Both the position numbers and the translations under genes were made by a program. Of a stretch of DNA of 28,400 nt, positions 14,365 through 26,357 are shown in pieces. Position 1 is the stretch's first letter, and every line of letters starts with the position of its first letter. The notes below the pieces were generated by a model that searched no databases, was not told where the DNA came from, and saw only the letters and a program-made list of their open reading frames with translations. The stretch comes from a virus, in the IMG/VR virus record IMGVR_UViG_3300030104_003898, positions 1-28,400 of that record. One strand, written 5' to 3'.

Positions 14365-15072
14365 ATGGCATTACCTAAGATTAGTGTACCTAAGTACAAA
14401 TTGAAACTACCCTCAGACGGTAGAACTGTGAATTTTAGACCATTTCTTGTAAAGGAGGAGAAAGTCCTTCTCTTAGCTACTGAAGATGGTGATCAAAACG
14501 TTATTGTTTCTGCAATCAAAGATATCATCAAAGATTGTACAGACATTACAGATGTAGAAAAACTTGCTACATTTGATATCGAATTCGTTTTCTTGCAGAT
14601 TCGTACAAAATCTGTTGGTGAAAGTGTAGATGTCAATGTAACTTGTCCTGATGATAATGAAACTACTGTATCAGTTTCTATTCCTTTAGACGAAATTAAA
14701 GTCAAGAAAACTAGAGGTCATAAAAAGGATCTTAAAATTTCTGATGACGTTGCTATTACAATGGGATACCCCACTATTGAAACATTCGTTGCTATGAACT
14801 TTGGTGAGGGTGCTGAGGTTGACCAAGTTTTTGATATGGCAGCTAGTTGTGTAGAATCAATTAGTGATGCTAATCAAGTTTATGATTGTTCTACTGTTCC
14901 TAAAAAAGAACTAATAGAATTTTTTGATCAAATGAATAGCAAGCAATTCATGATGATACAGGAATTTTTTGAAAAAATGCCTAAATTAACTCATACTATT
15001 AAGATTACTAATCCTAATACTGGAGTTGAGAGTGAGGTTGTACTGGAGGGTCTAGCGAGTTTTTTCGAATAG
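14365..15072 (+). CDS. 26: Baseplate hub assembly protein gp26 / tape-measure chaperone
   Basis: The protein is 235 aa and fits the T4 baseplate hub family of gp26: LPKISVPKYKLKLPSDGRTV, FRPFLVKEEKVLLLA, and FVFLQIRTKSVGESV followed by VTCPDDN. The relatives assemble the hub around the tape measure and probably act as its chaperone. The last codons contain T-TTT-TTC (15060-15066) just before GAA TAG. A -1 slip there would replace the last residue with a 64-residue extension ending at 15260. The gene lies directly before two giant tape-measure-like genes, exactly where chaperone genes with frameshifts sit in other tailed phages. Confidence 0.85.
   Translation: MALPKISVPKYKLKLPSDGRTVNFRPFLVKEEKVLLLATEDGDQNVIVSAIKDIIKDCTDITDVEKLATFDIEFVFLQIRTKSVGESVDVNVTCPDDNETTVSVSIPLDEIKVKKTRGHKKDLKISDDVAITMGYPTIETFVAMNFGEGAEVDQVFDMAASCVESISDANQVYDCSTVPKKELIEFFDQMNSKQFMMIQEFFEKMPKLTHTIKITNPNTGVESEVVLEGLASFFE
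15045..15072 (+). promoter_or_regulatory. Predicted -1 programmed ribosomal frameshift signal
   Basis: The slippery heptamer TTTTTTC (15060-15066) is in the correct X-XXY-YYZ register with the gp26 frame. GGAGGG (15045-15050) lies nine bases upstream, at the spacing of the internal Shine-Dalgarno that stimulates -1 frameshifting in E. coli dnaX. The zero-frame stop TAG follows two codons after the heptamer begins its last codon. The -1 frame is open through to 15260. Confidence 0.75.
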
Positions 15073-15260
15073 CTCTTCTTCACACCAATCTACAGTCTTA
15101 TTATGAAGGAAACTTTTCCTTAATGCATCACCATAAATGGGATATCGCTCATATCGATAATCTGATGCCATGGGAAAAGGAGATTTATGTGAATATGTTA
15201 GTCAATTTCCTCAAAGAAGAGGAACGTAGAATGAAGGAGCAACAAGCATCTGGTGGCTAA
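15066..15260 (+). CDS. Frameshift extension of gp26 (gpT-like domain)
   Basis: After a -1 slip on TTT TTC, reading resumes at CGA (15066) and continues for 64 codons to TAA at 15258-15260, giving a fusion of about 298 aa. The extension includes LLHTNLQSYYEGNFSLMHHH, KWDIAHIDNLMPWEKEIYVN and a charged C-terminal helix. Its pattern (a His-rich stretch, then W..x..I..LMPWE.EIY) resembles short domains attached by frameshift to tape-measure chaperones. The final stop overlaps the GTG start of the first giant gene by eight bases. An alternative is independent translation from ATG 15123 (45 aa), with AAGGAA eleven bases upstream; this would be a split gp51-like gene. Confidence 0.7.
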   Translation, partial: RIALLHTNLQSYYEGNFSLMHHHKWDIAHIDNLMPWEKEIYVNMLVNFLKEEERRMKEQQASGG

Positions 15261-18132
15261 ATTACAAGTATACAAATTTGTAAATCCTGGAGTTTCAAAT
15301 CTGAAATCTCCAACAGTTGCTGCTGCTAGAAAACAAACCTTAGCGTTGAATAGACTAGGAGGTACAATTTCCTCAATAGGAACGCTTGTTAGTGATATAG
15401 AAAGGATTTCAATCCGTCAAATTAAGAATGATAAGTTAAGAGCAAAAGCAGAACGTCGTAGAGATAGAAGAGAATTAGATCAGGCTACAGAAGAAGCACT
15501 AGAAAATAAGAAGGCAGCAAAAAATAAAAAACCTAAATTAAGCAAAACATCTTTAAAGATTGCTAAGGGTGGTCTTAGTTGGATAGAAAAATTCTTAGCA
15601 CCGATTGGAAAATTTCTTGGTTTTATAGCTAGAATTGCTATCACAAAGGAAGTACTTGAATGGGTAGGAGATCCTGCTAATATTGAGAAGTTATCAGATT
15701 TTCTAGAGAAGACGCATTTTGTCTTTAAAAAACTATTTGGTTGGGCAGCAGGATTTACTGACAATATTCTAGAAGGATTTTCTTCTTTAACGGATCCTAA
15801 TGGGACATTTATACAAAGGTTAGGTGGTCTTGGATCTATAATGAAGGGTTTGATCGGGTTGAAATACCTGATGAACCCTTTCAGTATTATTACTGATATT
15901 CTAGCACTAGTCGATTTACTTACTGGTGGAGATGGTAAAGGCAAAGGTAAAGGTGGTAAAAATAGAAACAGAAATAGAAACAGAAATAGAAATTATAACC
16001 CAAATCAAAGACCAGGAAGCAAACCTGGTCGAAGATTAAGACCTAAAATCACTACAAGTGGAGGAAGATCAACAGGACCATTTAGAGGAATTAGAGAATT
16101 TTTAAGAAAGACTAAAAAATTCCTTGGGCAAAAACCTAATATAACTTTTGGTGGTAAAGGTAGTAAAGGTAATTGGTTTACTAAACTATTCAGAGGTAAA
16201 CCTGACATAACTACTGGATCAGGTGGTGCCGCAAAAGGTAATTGGTTTACTAAACTATTCAAGGGCAAACCTCAAGTTACTACAGGTACTGGTGGTGTAA
16301 AAGGTAATTGGTTTAAGAATTTATTCAAAAGCAAAGCTGATCCCACTAAGATAACACAAGGGGTGGGTGGTAAATCAAGTAATTTCTTTAGTAAAATATT
16401 CAGCGGTAGTAATGTAACACAGGGTCAAGGTGGACTTAAGTCTAATTTCTGGACTAAAGGTAGGAATCTTATAACAAAGTTTAAACCTGGTGGTCTTATA
16501 CGAGGTGGTGGTAACCTTATAAAAGGTGGTGTTGCTTATGCTGGTATTGACTGGGCAATTACTGAGATCGTAGACGCTGTTATTACTGATCCAATGGGAA
16601 GGTATGTTGATAAGAAACTTGAAAATGCTGTAGATGAAAGATTCTTAAAAACTGGTAGTGAAGCAACTGTAAAATACTATGAAAATGAATTAGAGGCACG
16701 TCAAAAACTAAGAGCAGAACAATCTTGGTGGGGAAAGTTAAATTTAGGGACACGAAATCAATTGGACAATGTGCAGCAAGAAAGGTTGCAACATCAACTT
16801 GATTATGCTAGATCTCTTACAGAAAATAGAGATATTAGTGGTTTATTTTCAAAATATGAAACCTCTAAATCACCGCAAAAGAAGAATGATAATTGGTTTA
16901 CTAATTTATTTAAGAATGACAAGGAGCAAGCAAACAAAGAGATAAAGAAAGAAGAAAAGAAGAAGTCAGGTAATTGGTTTAGTAATCTATTTGGTAAGAA
17001 GGAGGAGAAGAAAGAGAAGAAGAAGGAAGAAAAGAAGGGTAATTGGTTTAGTAATCTATTTGGTAGTAAGAAGGAAGAGAAAAAACAACCTGAAAAGAAG
17101 AAGACAAATTGGTGGTCTGGTCTTTTCTCTAAGAAAAAACCTGAAAAGAAGAAAAAGAAAGGTTGGTGGCCTTTTGAACAGGGTGGAGAACTTCCAGAAT
17201 ACGGCATTGGTGGTTTCTTCAGAAGTATAAAGAAAATTGGTAGTGGTATATGGAATGGTGTAACTAATGTTGTTAATAAAGTAACTAGTAATCCTATAAT
17301 AAGTACTGCATTATCATTCATTCCTGGTATGCAAATACCAATGGCAGTGATTAATGGTATTAGTTCTTTATCGCAGGGTAATATTATGGGTGCTCTTTCT
17401 GCTGGACTAAGTGGATTGGGTGCCTTTGCTAATATCAATACAGTTAATGCTATCAGTCAACCTCAATGGTTGCAGAACTTACGATTTAGTGGTTTTGGTC
17501 AAGGTTTGGCAAATATGTATCATAGCGGTGCTAATGCATGGAGTACCTTAACCAGTGGATTTAATAATTTCATGGGTTCCAAATGGGGACAAATTGGACA
17601 GCAAGTTCTGGGTGGCGACTATATGGGTGCTTTAAATACGTTTAATCCTAAGTGGGGTGGTATTGCTTCTGATATTATGAGTGGTAACTATGGTGGTGCT
17701 TTAAGTGCTTTCAATCCTGAAATGGGTGCGGCGGTTACAAAGGGGATGGCAATGATAGACTCATTTAGGCAAGATCCTATGGGTTTGATTAGTAATATTG
17801 CAGAACAGCAAGGTATGGGAGGACTTCTTAAGGCAGTTACTGGTTTATTTGGTGGTGGTGATAAAATTACTGCTATGACACAAATTGCAGCAGAGATGGG
17901 TATCGATCCTAAAGTGCTTGGTGCAGTAAAGTCAGCACATCAGCAAGCACTAACCGAGGGAGGTATCTCTGCTGAATATGCTATGGAACAAGCTATGGAG
18001 TTTATTCCTATTCCCACGATTATTGAAAAGATCGTTACTATTCCTCAAGCAGTAGCAATAAATACTGGGGGTGGTACCCAAATAATAGTAACTGCACCTA
18101 ATTCTTTACTTGAGAGAGCGAAGGGATCCTAA
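15253..18132 (+). CDS. Giant tail protein 1, probable tape measure (959 aa)
   Basis: The GTG start at 15253 overlaps the frameshift frame. Residues 1-225 form a helical module with hydrophobic stretches (FLGFIARIAITKEVLEW, WVGDPANIEKLSDF) shared with the next gene. Residues 227-250 are Gly/Lys then Asn/Arg repeats (NRNRNRNRN). Next come seven or eight copies of a NWF-like motif (at residues 306, 329, 351, 377, 546, 573, 596, with TNWWSGLF near 618) separated by Gly/Thr or Lys/Glu linkers. Residues 650-900 are hydrophobic and Gly/Ala-rich, with three GxxxGAL repeats. The location after gp26, the length, and the alternating helical and hydrophobic content fit the tape measure (T4 gp29 role). 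At 0.15 nm per helical residue it would span about 144 nm. No direct gp29 match was seen. Confidence 0.7.
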   Translation: MAKLQVYKFVNPGVSNLKSPTVAAARKQTLALNRLGGTISSIGTLVSDIERISIRQIKNDKLRAKAERRRDRRELDQATEEALENKKAAKNKKPKLSKTSLKIAKGGLSWIEKFLAPIGKFLGFIARIAITKEVLEWVGDPANIEKLSDFLEKTHFVFKKLFGWAAGFTDNILEGFSSLTDPNGTFIQRLGGLGSIMKGLIGLKYLMNPFSIITDILALVDLLTGGDGKGKGKGGKNRNRNRNRNRNYNPNQRPGSKPGRRLRPKITTSGGRSTGPFRGIREFLRKTKKFLGQKPNITFGGKGSKGNWFTKLFRGKPDITTGSGGAAKGNWFTKLFKGKPQVTTGTGGVKGNWFKNLFKSKADPTKITQGVGGKSSNFFSKIFSGSNVTQGQGGLKSNFWTKGRNLITKFKPGGLIRGGGNLIKGGVAYAGIDWAITEIVDAVITDPMGRYVDKKLENAVDERFLKTGSEATVKYYENELEARQKLRAEQSWWGKLNLGTRNQLDNVQQERLQHQLDYARSLTENRDISGLFSKYETSKSPQKKNDNWFTNLFKNDKEQANKEIKKEEKKKSGNWFSNLFGKKEEKKEKKKEEKKGNWFSNLFGSKKEEKKQPEKKKTNWWSGLFSKKKPEKKKKKGWWPFEQGGELPEYGIGGFFRSIKKIGSGIWNGVTNVVNKVTSNPIISTALSFIPGMQIPMAVINGISSLSQGNIMGALSAGLSGLGAFANINTVNAISQPQWLQNLRFSGFGQGLANMYHSGANAWSTLTSGFNNFMGSKWGQIGQQVLGGDYMGALNTFNPKWGGIASDIMSGNYGGALSAFNPEMGAAVTKGMAMIDSFRQDPMGLISNIAEQQGMGGLLKAVTGLFGGGDKITAMTQIAAEMGIDPKVLGAVKSAHQQALTEGGISAEYAMEQAMEFIPIPTIIEKIVTIPQAVAINTGGGTQIIVTAPNSLLERAKGS
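15961..15992 (+). repeat. 12-bp tandem repeat encoding Asn-Arg
   Basis: The unit AATAGAAACAGA recurs about two and a half times in frame, following a Gly-Lys repeat. It encodes alternating Asn and Arg in the first giant tail protein and is a likely site of slippage length variation. Confidence 0.8.
16168..17060 (+). repeat. Dispersed repeats encoding the GNWFxxLF motif
   Basis: GGTAATTGGTT is found at 16168, 16237, 16303, 16969 and 17038, with a near copy at 16888. The first two copies extend to a shared 25-base match. Two further copies occur in the next gene at 19101 and 19185. Each encodes G-N-W-(F/L)-x-x-L-F. Identity at DNA level suggests recent amplification or gene conversion. Confidence 0.8.
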
Positions 18133-21005
18133 TGGCAACTATAAAAAAGAATTCAAAAATTAATTTCTATAAATTTGTACAAGTAAAGGTACCTAATGTT
18201 AGTGCAAAAACGAAAATGGAGTTGAAACCCATTATTTCGAATACTGCCGCTATCAATAATTTGGGTGCAACTGTAAACTCTATTGCAGTAATCGTTAAAG
18301 ATTTTAAAAAGATTCAACTTGAAAAGTTAGTACTTTCAAGGAAATCTTTAAAGGATTTTGAAGCAACATTTACAAAAACAAAAAAGAGGAAACCTTTTGC
18401 TGGATTTAGTCCTGCTGCTTTAGTAAAAAAACCTAATTGGTTAGAAGGTCTATTTAAGATGTTGAGTGGACTGATTAAAGCAGCGATTATTATTCCTGCT
18501 TTGAAATGGTTATCTGATCCTGCGAACAGAGAAAAAATATCAAGGATGATCGAAACCCTTTCTAAGTTGCTAACGTTCATCTTTAAAGTCGCAGAATTTG
18601 GTGTTGTTAATACTATTGAAGGATTATATAAGTTACTATCAGATACCTCTGCTCCTTGGGAAAGAATAGGAGGACTTGTACAAGGATTAACTGGACTTGG
18701 AACTTTATTGTTAGGTCTTCGTTGGTTGAGTAATCCAACTAGAATTATTACAGATTTTGGTAATGTACTCATCTTCCTTCATAATAATCTAATTAGAGGT
18801 AGAAGGGGATTACTAGGTAGAGCTGGAGCACTTGGATTAATTGCAGCAACTGCTTATGGTGGATATAAACTTTATGAATACATGAAGGAAGATGGAAGGG
18901 GTGGAAGACCAGATCCAAGAGATGACGGGTCTGAAGAATATGCAGGAGTTGATCAAGCAAGTATAACCTTAGGTGATAGTGGAAACGTAACCCTTGATAA
19001 GGATGGTAGTCTCACAGGTGCGTTAGACTTTACTTTAGGTGAGAATGTTAATATCCAAATAAATACGGATACTGATATAACTCCAGATGATAAGAAGGAA
19101 GGTAATTGGTTAACTAATCTATTCAAAATAGGGAACAGTATCTCTTCTACGGATACTAATACAACTTCAGATGATATGTCTGAAGGTAATTGGTTAACTA
19201 ATCTATTCAAATCTACTGGAGGTTTATTACCTTCATTTGCACAAGGAGGATGGATTAGTGGACCACAATCAGGATATGGAGTTTCATTGGATGGAGGGAG
19301 ATCCACTTCGTTCATCGGACATGGAACTGAGTACGTTGCTAGAAAGAGCGATGGGGGAGCTTTCATCGTTCCTTTTGATACTCCTGGAACAAAAACACAA
19401 CCAAACCTAACAGAAAGGAGGATAAATGAGGGTAAGAGACTAGGATTTGACTTAGATGGTTTTAGTAAAGGAGGAACTTTACCAAAAGATATGATACTTT
19501 CGCAAAAAGCTGCATTTGATCATGTATATAATCTAGCAAAACTAGCGGGAGGAGCAAAATACCCTGAAATTGTTGCTGCTCAGGCAATGCACGAATCAAA
19601 CTATCTAGATCCTAGGATTAATAGTGTTTATAATGCCACAAACAGAACTAATGCTTTCGGTCAAACTGGTGACAGAGGATTTGGTACTATTATTAGAAAG
19701 GGTTTTAAAGTAGGTTGGTCAAAATATGACACTCTATCCCGTGCAGTAGGCGATAATATTAAACTTTGGCATGATGTTACTAATCATCCTGGAAACTATA
19801 ATGCTTTTGGTAATATTTTAGATGGTATTGCTTCAGTTGCACCAGCATATTCACCCAATGCAGATCCTGAAAATATTAAAAAAGGATATACTACTGACAA
19901 GTATAGTGAAGGAATGATCAGAGCATTAAAAGTTGGTGGATTTGATATTAGTAATATGAAAGATAAAACTCCTAAGTCTTCATCTAATAGTGGTTCGGGA
20001 AGAAGACAGACTGGTAATATCTTCTCAAAATTTATGGGTGGTATTAAGAGTATATTTGGTAAAACAGATGAGAGTGATAAGAAGACAAAAACACAAAATA
20101 AAGTAAAGGCTGTCAAACCCGCATCACATCCTGATACAGGTTCTGGATTTACTGTTGCAGGAACAAGGGATCAAAGTGGTAGACCTTTAGTATTCTCAGA
20201 ACCAGCAGCACAAATGTTTGCTGCAGCAATGAGAGATTCTGGAATCGACTTAGGATCATTTGTTGCAAGTTCTGGTAGAAGTAAATCTAAGAACAAGGAA
20301 ATTGGTGGAGATCCTGAGTCATATCATCTATATGGTGAAGCACTTGATATTAATGGTGAAGGATATCAATGGTTGAAAGCAAATGGTAAACGTTTTGGTT
20401 GGCAATATGTTTACAACCATAATCCTGATAGTGCTCACTTTAAGTATGTTGGTGCTAAATCAGGTACTACACCGATTTTATCAGAAGCTGGTAAAGAATA
20501 TGCTGGTGGTAATAGTCTTCATGGACATATAGGTGAAGGTGCTCGTGAGGGTTCTCGTGGAGATAGTGGTAAAGGGACAAATAAACAAGGATCTCTAGAA
20601 TCACAAAAAATGGGAATGGGAAATCTATTTGGAAACCAAGAGAGGGGTGGTGGACAGAAACCAGGAGATAACAAAATCGCATCAGGTAGTGACACCAGGT
20701 CAGCTCAATTCCAACAAGCAAGGCAACAGAAAAGACTAGAGCAACAGACAAAAGAAAGAAATAATGCACGTCGTCAGGTAGCTGAGAGAAGTCAAGAAAT
20801 GATTAAGGAAGTTATGGCAGCAGTTGCTCACCAAAATGGGGTAAATACTCAAGCAATCCAAGCAGCACAAACAGCGTTAGCATCAGTGGCAGGACAAACA
20901 GGTGGAGGTAATCCGACATTGCTTCCAAGTAGTTCTGGTGGAGTCGGATCTATCGCATCTACTTTACAATCTAACCTTAATCCTTTGAGAGGTTTAGTCA
21001 GATGA
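18132..21005 (+). CDS. Giant tail protein 2 with two peptidoglycan hydrolase domains (957 aa)
   Basis: Residues 1-225 are paralogous to giant protein 1 (YKFV, LGATVNSIAVIVKD, WLSDPANREKIS near 126). GNWLTNLF occurs at 324 and 352. Residues 454-600 look like a glucosaminidase (GH73/FlgJ-type) or related lysozyme-fold domain: the putative catalytic Glu is E488 in AQAMHESNY, followed by NAFGQTGDRGFG. Residues 680-775 are an M15 zinc peptidase: H732-x6-D739 in SYHLYGEALD, then D766-x2-H769 in PDSAHFKYVG, as in T5 endolysin. The C-terminus is a Gln/Arg/Lys-rich coiled coil. It probably travels in the tail and cuts glycan and peptide bonds of host murein during DNA entry. The ATG overlaps the upstream stop by one base. 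Confidence 0.78.
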   Translation: MATIKKNSKINFYKFVQVKVPNVSAKTKMELKPIISNTAAINNLGATVNSIAVIVKDFKKIQLEKLVLSRKSLKDFEATFTKTKKRKPFAGFSPAALVKKPNWLEGLFKMLSGLIKAAIIIPALKWLSDPANREKISRMIETLSKLLTFIFKVAEFGVVNTIEGLYKLLSDTSAPWERIGGLVQGLTGLGTLLLGLRWLSNPTRIITDFGNVLIFLHNNLIRGRRGLLGRAGALGLIAATAYGGYKLYEYMKEDGRGGRPDPRDDGSEEYAGVDQASITLGDSGNVTLDKDGSLTGALDFTLGENVNIQINTDTDITPDDKKEGNWLTNLFKIGNSISSTDTNTTSDDMSEGNWLTNLFKSTGGLLPSFAQGGWISGPQSGYGVSLDGGRSTSFIGHGTEYVARKSDGGAFIVPFDTPGTKTQPNLTERRINEGKRLGFDLDGFSKGGTLPKDMILSQKAAFDHVYNLAKLAGGAKYPEIVAAQAMHESNYLDPRINSVYNATNRTNAFGQTGDRGFGTIIRKGFKVGWSKYDTLSRAVGDNIKLWHDVTNHPGNYNAFGNILDGIASVAPAYSPNADPENIKKGYTTDKYSEGMIRALKVGGFDISNMKDKTPKSSSNSGSGRRQTGNIFSKFMGGIKSIFGKTDESDKKTKTQNKVKAVKPASHPDTGSGFTVAGTRDQSGRPLVFSEPAAQMFAAAMRDSGIDLGSFVASSGRSKSKNKEIGGDPESYHLYGEALDINGEGYQWLKANGKRFGWQYVYNHNPDSAHFKYVGAKSGTTPILSEAGKEYAGGNSLHGHIGEGAREGSRGDSGKGTNKQGSLESQKMGMGNLFGNQERGGGQKPGDNKIASGSDTRSAQFQQARQQKRLEQQTKERNNARRQVAERSQEMIKEVMAAVAHQNGVNTQAIQAAQTALASVAGQTGGGNPTLLPSSSGGVGSIASTLQSNLNPLRGLVR

Positions 21006-22381
21006 CAATTAGAAGAAATGAATCGGGGGATGTTGATGTAAGAGTCAACGTCTTTAGGAATGGTCAAAAACTTCAAAGTTCTGACGGCAATGATGACATC
21101 TACGATTTCATTACGGGTATTGAAATCTATGAAAGTATTACTTCATCAACCATAGAGGTACAACTTCTCTTTAATGATGGTTCTGGATTTATAGGTGCTA
21201 TGACTGGATCTGAACAGTTTAGAATTGTAATTAGAGGAACAATTCTTGACAGAGTTTATTATGTTCGAGCATATAATATTGAGGCAAGAACAAGAATGAA
21301 TACTGCAGATTCATTTATTGTTAATTGTGCTAGTGATGAATTTTTCCAGAATGAGATTACTAACGTATTTGGAAATAGTCAAGTTATATTTAATTCCACA
21401 TCATCTTCTGAGATTGTAGAGCAAATTTTGAAGACAGATCAAAGGTATATAAAAACTCAAAAGAAGATTTATATTGAAGAATCTACAAACAAACAGCAGT
21501 TTATAGCAACAAATTGGAGACCATATGATTGTATCTATTGGCTTGCACAAAGGTCAACACGAAAAGCAAGAAAGGGTGGTACTCTTCAAAATGGATTTAT
21601 TTTTTGGGAAAATGGTTTAGGTCTTAATTTTAAGTCTATTGATAAAATTATTGATAATGTAAACAATCAAACTGAGTCAGACAGTAATTTTACTACAGGT
21701 ACGACTAAGTTGTACACCTATGTTTATTCAACAAAATCATCTGGTTCAGATTCATCTGATCAATTTAAAATTGAGACTATAGTATTTCCAGAAGAGAGAG
21801 ACTTCCTAACTGGATTGCGTAATGGTGCTTGGGCAGGATTTAGTATGGGTTTTGATCCTGTTACTGTAACACAATCTAAGATGGGATTGAGTACAGATAT
21901 GTCAGTGAATGCTTACCGTTATGGTATAGATGCGATGTGGCCAAAGATGTCACATTTGGATGAGAGTAAAGCAGTCAATCCATTATCACAATTGGATGAT
22001 AACATTAAACAAATTACTCAGTATCCAAGACGTACAAGATATACTGCTCTATCAAATCAAATTTTTGATCCAAAATTTCAAGATAATCCTCAAAAAAATT
22101 ATGAAGAGTTGGTAGAACTTCAGGCATACCAATGGATGAGGTTTGAGTCTTTAAAGAATATTAAGTTAATGATTAAATTTCCTGGTAATCTTGATCTGTA
22201 TGCAGGATCAGGAATGCAGGTAATTATACCTGCAACATATAAGAGGAATTCTACCACGGATATAGATAGAAAATATAGTGGAAGATATGTTATTGGTGGG
22301 TTGACACATAAGATTGTTGGTAGTAATATGACTACTGAAGCATTATTATTGAAGGATTCGATACCAAGGAAATCTTCGTAA
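21002..22381 (+). CDS. 27: Baseplate hub protein gp27
   Basis: gp27 is the trimeric ring that links the tail tube to the gp5 spike. The 459-aa protein (391 in T4) has the family start VRVNVFRNGQKL, DIYDFITGIEIYESITSSTI and VQLLFNDGSGF. Later come a QFIATNWRPYDCIYWLAQRS domain and ENGLGLNFKSIDKI, typical of the gp27/VgrG-N fold. The start overlaps the giant gene's stop (ATGA). A metabolic cassette of three genes separates it from gp5, its direct partner. Confidence 0.85.
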   Translation: MTIRRNESGDVDVRVNVFRNGQKLQSSDGNDDIYDFITGIEIYESITSSTIEVQLLFNDGSGFIGAMTGSEQFRIVIRGTILDRVYYVRAYNIEARTRMNTADSFIVNCASDEFFQNEITNVFGNSQVIFNSTSSSEIVEQILKTDQRYIKTQKKIYIEESTNKQQFIATNWRPYDCIYWLAQRSTRKARKGGTLQNGFIFWENGLGLNFKSIDKIIDNVNNQTESDSNFTTGTTKLYTYVYSTKSSGSDSSDQFKIETIVFPEERDFLTGLRNGAWAGFSMGFDPVTVTQSKMGLSTDMSVNAYRYGIDAMWPKMSHLDESKAVNPLSQLDDNIKQITQYPRRTRYTALSNQIFDPKFQDNPQKNYEELVELQAYQWMRFESLKNIKLMIKFPGNLDLYAGSGMQVIIPATYKRNSTTDIDRKYSGRYVIGGLTHKIVGSNMTTEALLLKDSIPRKSS

Positions 22382-22393: not shown

Positions 22394-22414
22394 CTAGTGT
22401 ATCAAGGAGGCACT

Positions 22415-22642
22415 ATGAAAACCATAGAAGACCACATCAATAAAGACCAAGAGATCTTACAAGATCCTACAACTAATCCTCAGATGCGTCGCCATATTGA
22501 AGGCGAACTTCATGACCTAGAAGATTATGCTTCTCATCATGCAGCAGAGATTAAAGCAGGAGATCATCACGATCCCAACACAATAGAACTATGGTGTGAC
22601 CAGCATCCAGACGAGCCAGAGTGCTTAGTATATGACGATTGA
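22415..22642 (+). CDS. cp12: CP12-like Calvin cycle inhibitor
   Basis: CP12 joins GAPDH and phosphoribulokinase in an inactive complex; phage copies are thought to block carbon fixation and push carbon to the pentose phosphate pathway for nucleotides. The 75-residue protein ends in the CP12 signature WCDQHPDEPECLVYDD with the redox pair C61 and C70. The helical middle (HIEGELHDLEDYASHHA) stands where host CP12 has AWDxVEEL. The N-terminal cysteine pair of typical host CP12 is absent. I chose ATG 22415 because of the perfect AAGGAGG; a GTG at 22397 lies on top of the predicted transcript start. Its stop overlaps the next gene (TGATG). Confidence 0.85.
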   Translation: MKTIEDHINKDQEILQDPTTNPQMRRHIEGELHDLEDYASHHAAEIKAGDHHDPNTIELWCDQHPDEPECLVYDD

Positions 22643-23073
22643 TGACAAACTTTTTATCATGGTTACTTGGAACTTGGTCTAATAAACATCAAGCACAATC
22701 AGCTCCTACTTTATATAAATCTGTAACTGTTAAGTGGGAGCAAAACGGTGAGTTTATAAATTCTATTCATTGGGGTAGAAAAAAATCTGATGATCCGTAT
22801 TTAAAAACTTACAAGAAATTAGTAGAAGTATCGGATAAAGAAGTTATTTTAGAACATTGGGGTGGAACCTATAGTGGTTTAACTCGCAATAAAGAATGTG
22901 ATATGGTATTAAAATTTGATGGTACAGTATGGATGGGTCAGTTTGATACTGATAATATTCATGCTGAACTTGCTGTGTATGGCACTAAACTTTTTATGAG
23001 AGATAAATTCTTAGACTCTAAAGGTAGGATTGTTTGGGGTGCAGATGAAATATATAAGTTTGTTAGGGTTTAA
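22642..23073 (+). CDS. cpeT: CpeT/CpcT-like phycobiliprotein lyase family protein
   Basis: T-type lyases attach bilins to phycobiliproteins. The 143-residue protein has the family frame: NFLSWLLGTWSNKHQAQSAP at the start, the ECDMVLKFDGTVWMG strand, and IVWGADEIYKFVRV at the end, where family members read VWG..GPYxFxR. The predicted fold is a ten-strand calycin-type barrel. Cyanophage relatives bind bilin, but full lyase activity has been doubtful. The ATG at 22642 overlaps the cp12 stop; a TTG one codon earlier is rejected. It precedes pcyA by two bases, consistent with a bilin-handling pair. Confidence 0.75.
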   Translation: MTNFLSWLLGTWSNKHQAQSAPTLYKSVTVKWEQNGEFINSIHWGRKKSDDPYLKTYKKLVEVSDKEVILEHWGGTYSGLTRNKECDMVLKFDGTVWMGQFDTDNIHAELAVYGTKLFMRDKFLDSKGRIVWGADEIYKFVRV

Positions 23074-23075
23074 TT

Positions 23076-23792
23076 ATGGATTCGGGAAAGTATATAAAAC
23101 CATGGGTTCGTCTTTCAATTGAAGTTGCCAACTACTTGAGAGAAGAATTAAAAAGTTTTCCTGATGTTACACATATGGAAAACAAATATCCTATTGTGGA
23201 AAATGATAATGTATTCATTATCAATGAAATGCATCAGAGTAAGAAACTTAGAAAGATGCATTTGGAAACTGGATACACGGAAAATATTTCTGTAATGCAT
23301 TGTGTATTATATCCTATTCCTGATTATCCTATACCTATTTTTGGTGCTGATATTGTAGAAACTCCTAATGCAGTTACTGCAGCAATTGTTGATATATCAC
23401 CTGTGTTTGGAACTCAAAAATATGTGGATGTATATAAAGACATAGCATACAAGTATAAGTTTAAAGAGAATAGAGTCTTACCTTTATGGACTGATGAGGT
23501 TTTCTCACAAGGATGTAAGTTTATGCGTATTAGAACGGATGAAGAAAGAGAAATGTATATGAATCTAATTAAAGAATCTATTCAACTCTATAAAGGTATA
23601 GTAGAAAATTCTGAGTTTGATATGGAATGGATCAATACTATGAAGAGGATTGATGATCAGATTTATTATTGTAAACAACAAAGAAAGAATAAAAAGACTA
23701 AAGCAGTTTTGAGTCAATGGTTCGATCCCCAATGGGCAGAAGATTACATCAATGAAATTCTCTTTGACACGAATGTAATAAATAAATCGTAA
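23076..23792 (+). CDS. pcyA: Phycocyanobilin:ferredoxin oxidoreductase PcyA
   Basis: PcyA reduces biliverdin IXalpha to phycocyanobilin in two two-electron steps using ferredoxin. At 238 aa it aligns along its full length by eye with cyanobacterial PcyA: LRKMHLETG, SVMHCVLYPIPDYPIPIFGA, DIVETPNAVTAAIVDISP, IYYCKQQRKNKKTKAVL and WAEDYINEILFD. Residues matching the Synechocystis active site are kept: H62 and E64 (H74/E76), H75 (H88) and D92 (D105). Retention of the Glu needed for exovinyl reduction points to phycocyanobilin as product rather than phycoerythrobilin. It lies between cpeT and gp5. Confidence 0.93.
   Translation: MDSGKYIKPWVRLSIEVANYLREELKSFPDVTHMENKYPIVENDNVFIINEMHQSKKLRKMHLETGYTENISVMHCVLYPIPDYPIPIFGADIVETPNAVTAAIVDISPVFGTQKYVDVYKDIAYKYKFKENRVLPLWTDEVFSQGCKFMRIRTDEEREMYMNLIKESIQLYKGIVENSEFDMEWINTMKRIDDQIYYCKQQRKNKKTKAVLSQWFDPQWAEDYINEILFDTNVINKS
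23777..23784 (+). promoter_or_regulatory. Late promoter for gp5
   Basis: AATAAATA sits inside the last codons of pcyA. The predicted start near 23790 lies just ahead of AAGGA (23791-23795) and the gp5 ATG at 23808. Confidence 0.5.
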
Positions 23793-23807: not shown

Positions 23808-26357
23808 ATGTCATCAATTGAAGGAATTACTAATGAACCTGCCGTAAACTTTGTAGGGAAAGACGGATTTTTCTGGTGGGTTGGTGAAGTTGAAGATAAT
23901 GAAGACCCTATGGAGTTAGGTAGGGTTAGAGTTCGTGTGCTTGGATATTATACTAATGTAAGAGGTGGGACGACAGCAGATCTTCCTACAGAAAATCTTC
24001 CATGGGCAACAGTATTACAACATACATGCCAACCAGGAAATGATGGTCAGGGTGAAAGTTCTGGTCAACTGCAACCTGGTGCTATTGTTATGGGTTTCTT
24101 CATGGATGGAGAGTCTGCTCAAATGCCAATAGTTATTGGTGTTATGAGAGTTAAGAAATCTGCAGAGTCACAGGAGAAGAAAGTATTTGCCTTTACTGGT
24201 GAGAACATGGAACCTGGCGTTGGTCCCAATATGACCACAATGACACCTGGCAATCCTAACTCAAGTATGGCAGCGACAAAGGAGGAAGGATTTCATAGGG
24301 CAAATATTGCTAACACTGTAGATCTTCCTAACCAAAAGGGTGAGAATCAGAGTGCTGCTATTTCTGGTAGTGGTTCTCCTAATAATATAGGAACTGTGAT
24401 GAATGGTAGTGCTGGTAATCCCATCAAACCAAGAAATCCAGATAAACCTATTCCTGCTGCTAATGGTGTTGGTGGTCCTTGGAAGACGTTAGAGTATAAG
24501 TTATCATATCTTGTAGAAGATCTTGCAGATCATGCTGGTTCTTTGATTCGTGCAGAGGATGGTGAGTTCTTAGATGTTGTTACTGGTAAGTTAGTTAGTG
24601 CAAAACAACTTACGGTAAGACTTCAAAATTTCTTGAGTGGTGTATTCGCTCAAGTAGTTGCTGCAATGCGTCAAGCACTTGCTAATCTTGCCGAACAATT
24701 AGAGTTGGTTAATCTTCTTGGTGGTGCAACTGGTGTACCATTTGTTGTGTTTACAGCAATTCAAGCAGCAGTTAAAGCGATTCTTTCATCTCTTTGTAAT
24801 ATTGATAGTAAGTTACTTAGTTTTATTTCAGATCCTATAGGAAGTATTGTTGGATATCTTGAAAGTTTTCTTGATGGGTTGATTGATAAAGCAACCATGG
24901 TTATGCAGGGTGTTCAAGCAGCAATCGATGGTGTTATCTGTCAAGTTCAAAGACTTCTTGATCAAGTTTTAGGTATTGTTGATACAGTATCATCAATCGT
25001 AGATGGTATTGGTAAAGCAAAAGAAATTATTGATGCATGGAAAGCAGGTAGTGAAATTTTTGAAGCAGGAACTGATCTTCTTAAGAAAGGTATTACTAGC
25101 ATTACTGGATTGATTCAACTGTTCATTAAGTTTGCTGGTAGTAATTGTGATCGTAAACCTGATGGTGGTAAAGATACGGTAGGTTGGTATCCTTTATTTG
25201 GTGTTACTCATTGTACTCCTGAAGAACTTGCAGAAATTAACGCAATTAGAGGACAGAGTAGAGGAACTTGTGGTGGTAGTGCAGGATCTGGTGGTCTTTT
25301 TGATAATATTTTCAATGAAGCAGATCCATATTTAACTGCCGCTAAAACTTTCTTAGATGGTTCCTATGAAATGTTTGTTGGAACTCCTGGTCGTCAGGCA
25401 AGTGTAAATAAAAAAGCAAGTGGAACAACATCAACATCTGTAAAGATAAATCAGAACGAGTATGCCAAGTTCAATGCTCGTAAAGAGATTAGGAAACAAA
25501 ATCCAGACATTGATGCAGATGAACTTGAAAGACAAGTAGATGCTTCCGTAAAATCGGCAAATGGTGGTAAGGGTGATACTGGTTCTTTAGTTGCTGACCA
25601 TACAACATATGCTGGTAATTACACAGAAGAAACTCATGGTGACCACTGTAAACAAATTGACGGTGATCATGTTGTAAACGTCGATGGTGATTATTTCTTA
25701 AAGATTACAGGTGATTGTCATATTGAAGTTGGTGGTGGTTTCTTCTTTGATGCTGAAGGTGCTCCTAAAGTTGTAGATAAAAAAGGTAATAAGAAGAACG
25801 AAAAAGTTCAAAAGCATACAATCAAATTTGGATCTGATGTTGACATCAATACTGTTGGTGCTAAGTTTGAAGTTCAAGGTGCAGAATTTAATGTAGGATC
25901 TGTTTCTAGTAAGTTTACTAGCAGTGTTTTTGAATCTAGTGGTGGACAAGCAGCTATTTCTGCAGGAGAAGTTATTATTAGTGGAGATAACTCTATTGAT
26001 CTCATTACACCTTCATTAGTTGAAATGATTAATACACCACCTTCACCTATTCCTAAGGCAATTACAGGTATTCGTAGAATGGTAGGTGGTTCAGTTGAAA
26101 CAGTTATGGTACCTGGTATGTCTTCTGATGCTATTCCTAGGTATATTATTGCTAATCCACTTGGACCATATTCATTGACATGTGGTACAACAGGATATAA
26201 CTGTAACGTTACGACTGGAATGTATAATGTCAATGTTGTAGCAGGTGCAATGATAATGAATGCAAGTCTTGCTTGTACAATGACCTGTGGTACTGGTATG
26301 CTTCTTGAAGCAGGGGCAGCAGTACTAATCCTTGGTAAGACAGTCTTTATCAACTAA
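23808..26357 (+). CDS. 5: Baseplate central spike gp5 without lysozyme domain
   Basis: The N-terminal OB-fold is clear (FFWWVGEVEDNEDPMELGRV, RVLGYY, LPWATVLQH, QPGAIVMGFFMDGE, MPIVIGVMR; residues 20-120). From about residue 600 to 849 comes the spike beta-helix: GDHCKQIDGDHVVNVDGDYF repeats, ending in short Gly/Cys/Thr strands at the tip. The middle is not a T4 lysozyme. Residues 224-448 are instead helical and partly amphipathic or hydrophobic (FLSGVFAQVVAAMRQALANL, LLSFISDPIGSIVGYLESFL). The 849 aa compares with 575 in T4. It forms the membrane-piercing tip with gp27. Confidence 0.85.
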   Translation: MSSIEGITNEPAVNFVGKDGFFWWVGEVEDNEDPMELGRVRVRVLGYYTNVRGGTTADLPTENLPWATVLQHTCQPGNDGQGESSGQLQPGAIVMGFFMDGESAQMPIVIGVMRVKKSAESQEKKVFAFTGENMEPGVGPNMTTMTPGNPNSSMAATKEEGFHRANIANTVDLPNQKGENQSAAISGSGSPNNIGTVMNGSAGNPIKPRNPDKPIPAANGVGGPWKTLEYKLSYLVEDLADHAGSLIRAEDGEFLDVVTGKLVSAKQLTVRLQNFLSGVFAQVVAAMRQALANLAEQLELVNLLGGATGVPFVVFTAIQAAVKAILSSLCNIDSKLLSFISDPIGSIVGYLESFLDGLIDKATMVMQGVQAAIDGVICQVQRLLDQVLGIVDTVSSIVDGIGKAKEIIDAWKAGSEIFEAGTDLLKKGITSITGLIQLFIKFAGSNCDRKPDGGKDTVGWYPLFGVTHCTPEELAEINAIRGQSRGTCGGSAGSGGLFDNIFNEADPYLTAAKTFLDGSYEMFVGTPGRQASVNKKASGTTSTSVKINQNEYAKFNARKEIRKQNPDIDADELERQVDASVKSANGGKGDTGSLVADHTTYAGNYTEETHGDHCKQIDGDHVVNVDGDYFLKITGDCHIEVGGGFFFDAEGAPKVVDKKGNKKNEKVQKHTIKFGSDVDINTVGAKFEVQGAEFNVGSVSSKFTSSVFESSGGQAAISAGEVIISGDNSIDLITPSLVEMINTPPSPIPKAITGIRRMVGGSVETVMVPGMSSDAIPRYIIANPLGPYSLTCGTTGYNCNVTTGMYNVNVVAGAMIMNASLACTMTCGTGMLLEAGAAVLILGKTVFIN

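Follow-up and report, generated by a model that had tools for sequence, protein, structure and literature searches.

Two paralogous proteins of the baseplate-hub operon as the probable tape measure of T4-like marine cyanophages

The window, a stretch of 28,400 nucleotides from an uncultivated virus, is a contig of a P-SSM7-like cyanophage; of the isolates, Prochlorococcus phage P-SSM7 comes closest to it. On its plus strand lie, in this order, gp26, gp51, two large open reading frames here called X and Y, a gp27-like gene, CP12, cpeT, pcyA and gp5. The 235-residue gp26-like baseplate hub protein or assembly chaperone (14365-15072; Pfam PF12322 T4_baseplate, 1.1e-76; phrog_150) is followed by a short gp51-like reading frame of ~45 residues (15123-15260), read from the sequence and placed as is gp51 of P-SSM7, whose stop overlaps the start of X. 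X (15253-18132, GTG start; phrog_790, 2e-183) and Y (18132-21005, ATG start; phrog_1200, 2e-240) overlap by a single base and, as the original prediction had it, are adjacent reading frames of 959 and 957 residues. Y in turn shares four bases with the gene for the gp27-like hub protein (459 residues, 21002-22381; phrog_350, 1e-144), which serves below as a length control. The host-derived genes of CP12-like, cpeT and pcyA type occupy positions 22397-23792 within the hub operon, ahead of the 849-residue gp5-like hub protein and tail lysozyme (23808-26357; phrog_694). Two large reading frames fill the interval between gp26 and gp27 in 135 of 135 environmental loci, and a one-gene arrangement occurs in none of them; the single case seen is the freshwater relative S-CRM01, where g61 (L191:6410-9004) replaces X and Y with one gene that has X-like ends, a Pfam-recognized lysozyme domain and, on visual inspection, an M15-like HxxGxAxD segment.

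X, the proposed principal tape-measure protein, begins with a helical module in common with Y (aa 1-224, 15253-15924), for which a low-confidence model predicts helices at residues 20-223. Its variable middle (16168-17127) consists of GNW-LF motifs (aa 306-383 and 546-625) around a helical segment at ~425-535, outside of which pLDDT is ~30, and it ends with a helical, hydrophobic region (aa 641-959, 17173-18129) marked by conserved columns and by predicted helices at 667-915. The model of the whole protein is nearly all helical, but has a pLDDT of 48 and long unstructured linkers; X of the window has no Pfam match.

Y combines predicted N- and C-terminal helices with beta domains (overall pLDDT 52). 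Its N-terminal module (aa 1-218, 18132-18785), recognized as paralogous to that of X by BLASTP and profile-profile comparison, is followed by a highly conserved segment of the type GGWISGPQSGY...FIGHGTEYVARK (aa 363-448, 19218-19475), with invariant columns and predicted beta hairpins (model strands within 373-415). A putative glucosaminidase-like region (aa 477-557, 19560-19802; AMHES at 485) gives a weak Pfam match below cut-off (E=0.023), and an M15 peptidase domain (aa ~661-772, 20112-20447) is matched above cut-off (PF08291, 1.5e-5), is modeled with a pLDDT of ~88 and contains HxxGxAxD at 732 and SAHF at 767. Foldseek comparison of the Y model with the PDB returned nothing significant, and PDB-sequence profile searches with X and Y gave no matches. 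Similarity between a P-SSM2-type X profile and designed repeat proteins was rejected as spurious, no stretch having passed on its own; a hand-made VPxxLxxGEFV pattern is present in some relatives only and absent from the window.

The predicted kinship of the two N-terminal modules is borne out by BLASTP (26% identity over 379 aa, E=4e-15) and, for the window's group, by profile-profile comparison of X 2-224 with Y 8-217 (E=1.4e-26, probability 99.7%). YKFV, LGxTxxSI and W-x-DPAN-x-EK are found in both proteins, as are GNW-LF-type motifs (eight in X, two in Y). Beyond the module the two are unrelated, likewise as predicted: the M15 and glucosaminidase-like regions belong to Y, and X lacks any Pfam match. 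Sequence comparison marks X and Y as paralogues from an ancient duplication, considered old because weaker yet significant X-Y homology is also detectable in the P-SSM2 group (E=4.2e-10).

That the near-identical lengths of X and Y imply selection on length, as originally argued, fails at fine scale. Close relatives have X/Y lengths of 893/919 (P-SSM7), 932/871 and 1022/931. The lengths of X and Y are uncorrelated both in the window's group (r=-0.09, 42 distinct pairs, among them one artefactual 265-aa X) and in the long class (r=0.01, 45 pairs). Differences of at most two residues occur in 8.9% of long-class pairs against 2.6% after shuffling, several such pairs being close kin. Since correlation among relatives is about zero and the small differences partly reflect close kinship, the 959/957 match is an unremarkable coincidence, and exact equality is rejected as a selected trait. 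At the scale of clades, the two lengths do go together. Over 115 pairs from Kyanoviridae X and Y lengthen jointly from 474/474 to 1565/1456 (r=0.94 raw), by way of, for example, 529/516 in P-SSM2, 644/653 in ACG-2014f, ~920/910, 1016/991 in S-CREM1 and 1565/1456 in S-CREM2, while gp27 spans only 417-536 aa over the same range. Correction on a gp27 tree leaves r=0.42 (p=0.01), a signal carried by few deep contrasts that falls to r=0.15 without the three strongest. Counter-examples exist in S-PM2 (1167/749), S-H34 (936/735) and S-N03 (933/722).

Protein length was then set against tail length, the check proposed with the original prediction, in 11 phages with published values from different laboratories. 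These are P-SSM2 (100 nm) and P-SSM4 (200 nm), both taken off published micrographs, S-PM2 (200 nm) and Syn9 (150 nm; all four PMC2771037), S-H34 (129 nm) and S-N03 (138 nm; PMC7472177), S-CREM1 (165 nm; PMC9964418), S-SCSM1 (173 nm; PMC9602691), MS29 (124 nm; PMC10436341), S-SZBM1 (71.7-113.6 nm, the larger value being entered; PMC9146016) and S-CREM2 (418 nm; PMC10665884). The length of X follows that of the tail closely (rho 0.92, or 0.89 without S-CREM2; phylogenetically corrected r=0.89 and 0.76, respectively) and that of Y more weakly (rho 0.70 and 0.60; corrected r=0.88 and 0.58), a relationship that is purely correlational. The lengths of the control proteins do not track the tail (rho 0.06 for gp27, 0.08 for gp5 and -0.48 for gp48). 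Partial rank correlation with tail length is 0.86 for X given Y and 0.37 for Y given X, which makes X the likelier ruler.

Without S-CREM2, regression on X gives a slope of 0.153 nm per residue and an intercept of ~3 nm. With a tail ring spacing of ~4.06 nm, 24 rings correspond to 97 nm. The T4 tail has 24 rings (PMC8718954), and T4 gp29 (590 aa) placed on the X line predicts 94 nm against this ~97 nm. The single 864-aa gene of S-CRM01 predicts 136 nm, with a reported tail of 140-170 nm. S-CREM2 is a marked outlier above the line, at 418 nm reported against 243 nm predicted, an excess that may stem from the measurement or from a different packing.

S-CREM2 (418 nm) and S-H34 (129 nm) were also compared gene by gene over 79 reciprocal best pairs of reading frames taken from the first start codon, which is why X of S-H34, annotated at 936 residues, counts here as 943. 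With one partial fibre-gene match set aside, the largest gains in S-CREM2 are +721 residues in Y and +622 in X. In sheath, tube, gp27, gp6 and gp8 the two phages are within 0-14 residues of each other, gp5 is shorter in S-CREM2 (812 vs 901), and among conserved tail proteins only X and Y gain hundreds of residues. The added sequence consists partly of enzymes and partly of unstructured or repetitive stretches, including a 295-aa segment of X that is 66% S/T/N and, in Y (L083:34185-38555), a 13-residue tandem repeat of the FQQSMGSVAPAG type with 19 strict copies. Thirteen residues at ~0.31 nm per residue would span one ~4-nm ring, a numerical coincidence. A scan with S-CREM2 gp27 found no relatives.

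Both proteins occur in virions of two relatives. The S-CREM2 proteome contains the pair as ORF208 and ORF209, with 73 and 71 unique peptides (PMC10665884), and that of S-SCSM1 as ORF213 and ORF214 (PMC9602691); in each paper both are annotated as lysis enzymes. The expectation that neither would be missing from the particle is thus supported in these two phages; in S-SZBM1, neither S-SZBM1_66 nor S-SZBM1_67 appears in the proteome text or table, a proteome of little depth, with a single peptide for the tube protein itself (PMC9146016). Among relatives, the enzyme types found in X or Y are GH19, phage lysozyme, VanY, M23, glucosaminidase, tail lysozyme or none, and they are as frequent in X as in Y. 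The suggested division into one structural and one enzymatic copy describes the window, where Y has the enzymes, but not relatives with an enzyme in X (VanY in S-CREM1, GH19 in S-H34 and S-N03, glucosaminidase in S-SCSM1, tail lysozyme in S-PM2); in P-SSM2, P-SSM4 and Syn9, Pfam recognizes no enzyme in either protein. X of S-PM2 (L190:4357-7860, 1167 aa) also matches ADP-ribosyltransferase families at residues 66-218 (Pfam ART, 1.3e-5, above cut-off), which suggests that the tape may bring an effector along.

Taken together, these observations make it probable that X and Y are the tape measure of T4-like marine cyanophages, X likely being the main ruler and Y its paralogous partner, because protein length, that of X above all, follows measured tail length. 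The hallmarks of a tape measure include a length that sets or tracks that of the tail, presence in the tail of the virion, a long and mostly helical chain with hydrophobic segments, a location in the tube lumen and a copy number of three to six. Position in the operon, ancient paralogy, two virion proteomes, the correlation with the tail and the joint expansion in S-CREM2 support this reading. In these phages the pair would fill the tail tube and do the work of T4 gp29; X would be attached to the gp27/gp5 hub and initiator and run up the lumen, with tube polymerization capped at its far end, and Y would be bundled beside it, its length following more loosely. The variable parts of both would carry interchangeable peptidoglycan hydrolases that leave with the tape on infection. 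Tape-measure PHROGs match X or Y of several relatives outside the enzyme domains, which is support and not proof because gp5 also matches. The original proposal is supported in part. A tape measure in place of gp29 agrees with position, tail correlation, S-CREM2 expansion and virion presence; a meaning in the exact equality is not supported, given lengths that vary independently among close relatives, the 1167/749 pair of S-PM2 and the one gene of S-CRM01, and neither is a constant split into one structural and one enzymatic member.

This reading has two sharper versions. The slightly likelier one, possible but less probable than not, holds that X alone is the tape and that Y, descended from an old duplicate of it, is only a peptidoglycan hydrolase packaged in the virion. 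The partial correlations, the M15 and glucosaminidase-like domains of the window's Y and the absence of Y as a separate gene from S-CRM01 agree with it, but enzymes are as common in X, Y of P-SSM2 has none detectable, and Y of S-CREM2 expands as much as X, largely through the non-enzymatic 13-residue repeat. The expansion of both proteins in S-CREM2, and their similar peptide counts there, favor the originally proposed two-stranded hetero-oligomeric tape, with X and Y each spanning the tube and jointly determining its length. This we consider possible but rather doubtful, and we would give no greater credence to its corollary that such a tape was fixed by the ancient duplication, so that a longer tail would need both proteins longer, partly via tandem repeats. 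The X-Y length correlation over a threefold range, also after phylogenetic correction, and the corrected Y-tail correlation with S-CREM2 included argue for it; against it stand the rho of only 0.60 for Y without S-CREM2, the unequal proteins of S-PM2 with its 200-nm tail, the 140-170 nm tail that S-CRM01 builds with one gene of 864 residues, and the loss of most of the X-Y correlation once the three strongest contrasts are removed.

The annotated function, with X and Y acting as endolysins or as lysins of the hub tip and having nothing to do with length, is improbable. It has on its side the PHROG label, the hydrolase domains and the listing among lysis proteins in the S-CREM2 paper (PMC10665884); yet the lengths of X and Y track the tail and those of the hub proteins do not, Pfam finds no enzyme in X of the window or in either protein of P-SSM2, P-SSM4 and Syn9, and both are virion proteins encoded in the hub operon. 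In an endolysin the catalytic domain would be the conserved core, whereas here some members are enzyme-free and the enzyme type varies; the label captures a domain present in some members and not the likely function of X and Y. Less probable still is that another protein such as gp5 is the ruler, for although residues 261-442 of the window's gp5 (24588-25131) weakly match several tape-measure PHROGs (E down to 9e-6), gp5 is rejected on length (rho 0.08, and shorter in the 418-nm phage), and no conserved S-CREM2 protein with an orthologue, fibres aside, shows a comparable expansion.

In the ocean, few viruses outnumber the T4-like cyanophages. Naming the probable X/Y tape measure would correct widespread "endolysin" and "hypothetical" labels and give a handle on the tail length of uncultured marine phages, and the pair is a natural case in which to test whether a contractile tail takes its length from one chain or from two. 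We found no paper naming a cyanophage tape measure in the open-licence literature, and earlier naming elsewhere is possible; in pelagimyophages, another marine T4-like group, the authors could not identify one (PMC7029224).

In comparison with known systems, X and Y are members of the "endolysin" families PHROG 790 and 1200, and the cyanophage T4-GC 335/336, 13/14 and 669/670 are members or positional equivalents of the pair. They resemble T4 gp29 in their hub gene neighbourhood, in a presumed anchorage at the hub and in a tail length of ~0.15-0.16 nm per residue (590 aa and ~97 nm in T4). They differ in that gp29 is one gene, downstream of gp27 and gp28, and in gene order (26-51-X-Y-27-5 in the window, 51-27-28-29-48-54 in T4); to our knowledge, gp29 has no hydrolase domain. 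With gp29 entered as a single sequence, four hhalign comparisons with X and Y gave E values of 0.26-0.49, so that no homology to gp29 is detectable. In other tailed phages, tape measures that incorporate peptidoglycan hydrolases share with X and Y the combination of a length ruler and lytic domains, but usually are one protein, whereas the cyanophages have two ancient paralogues.
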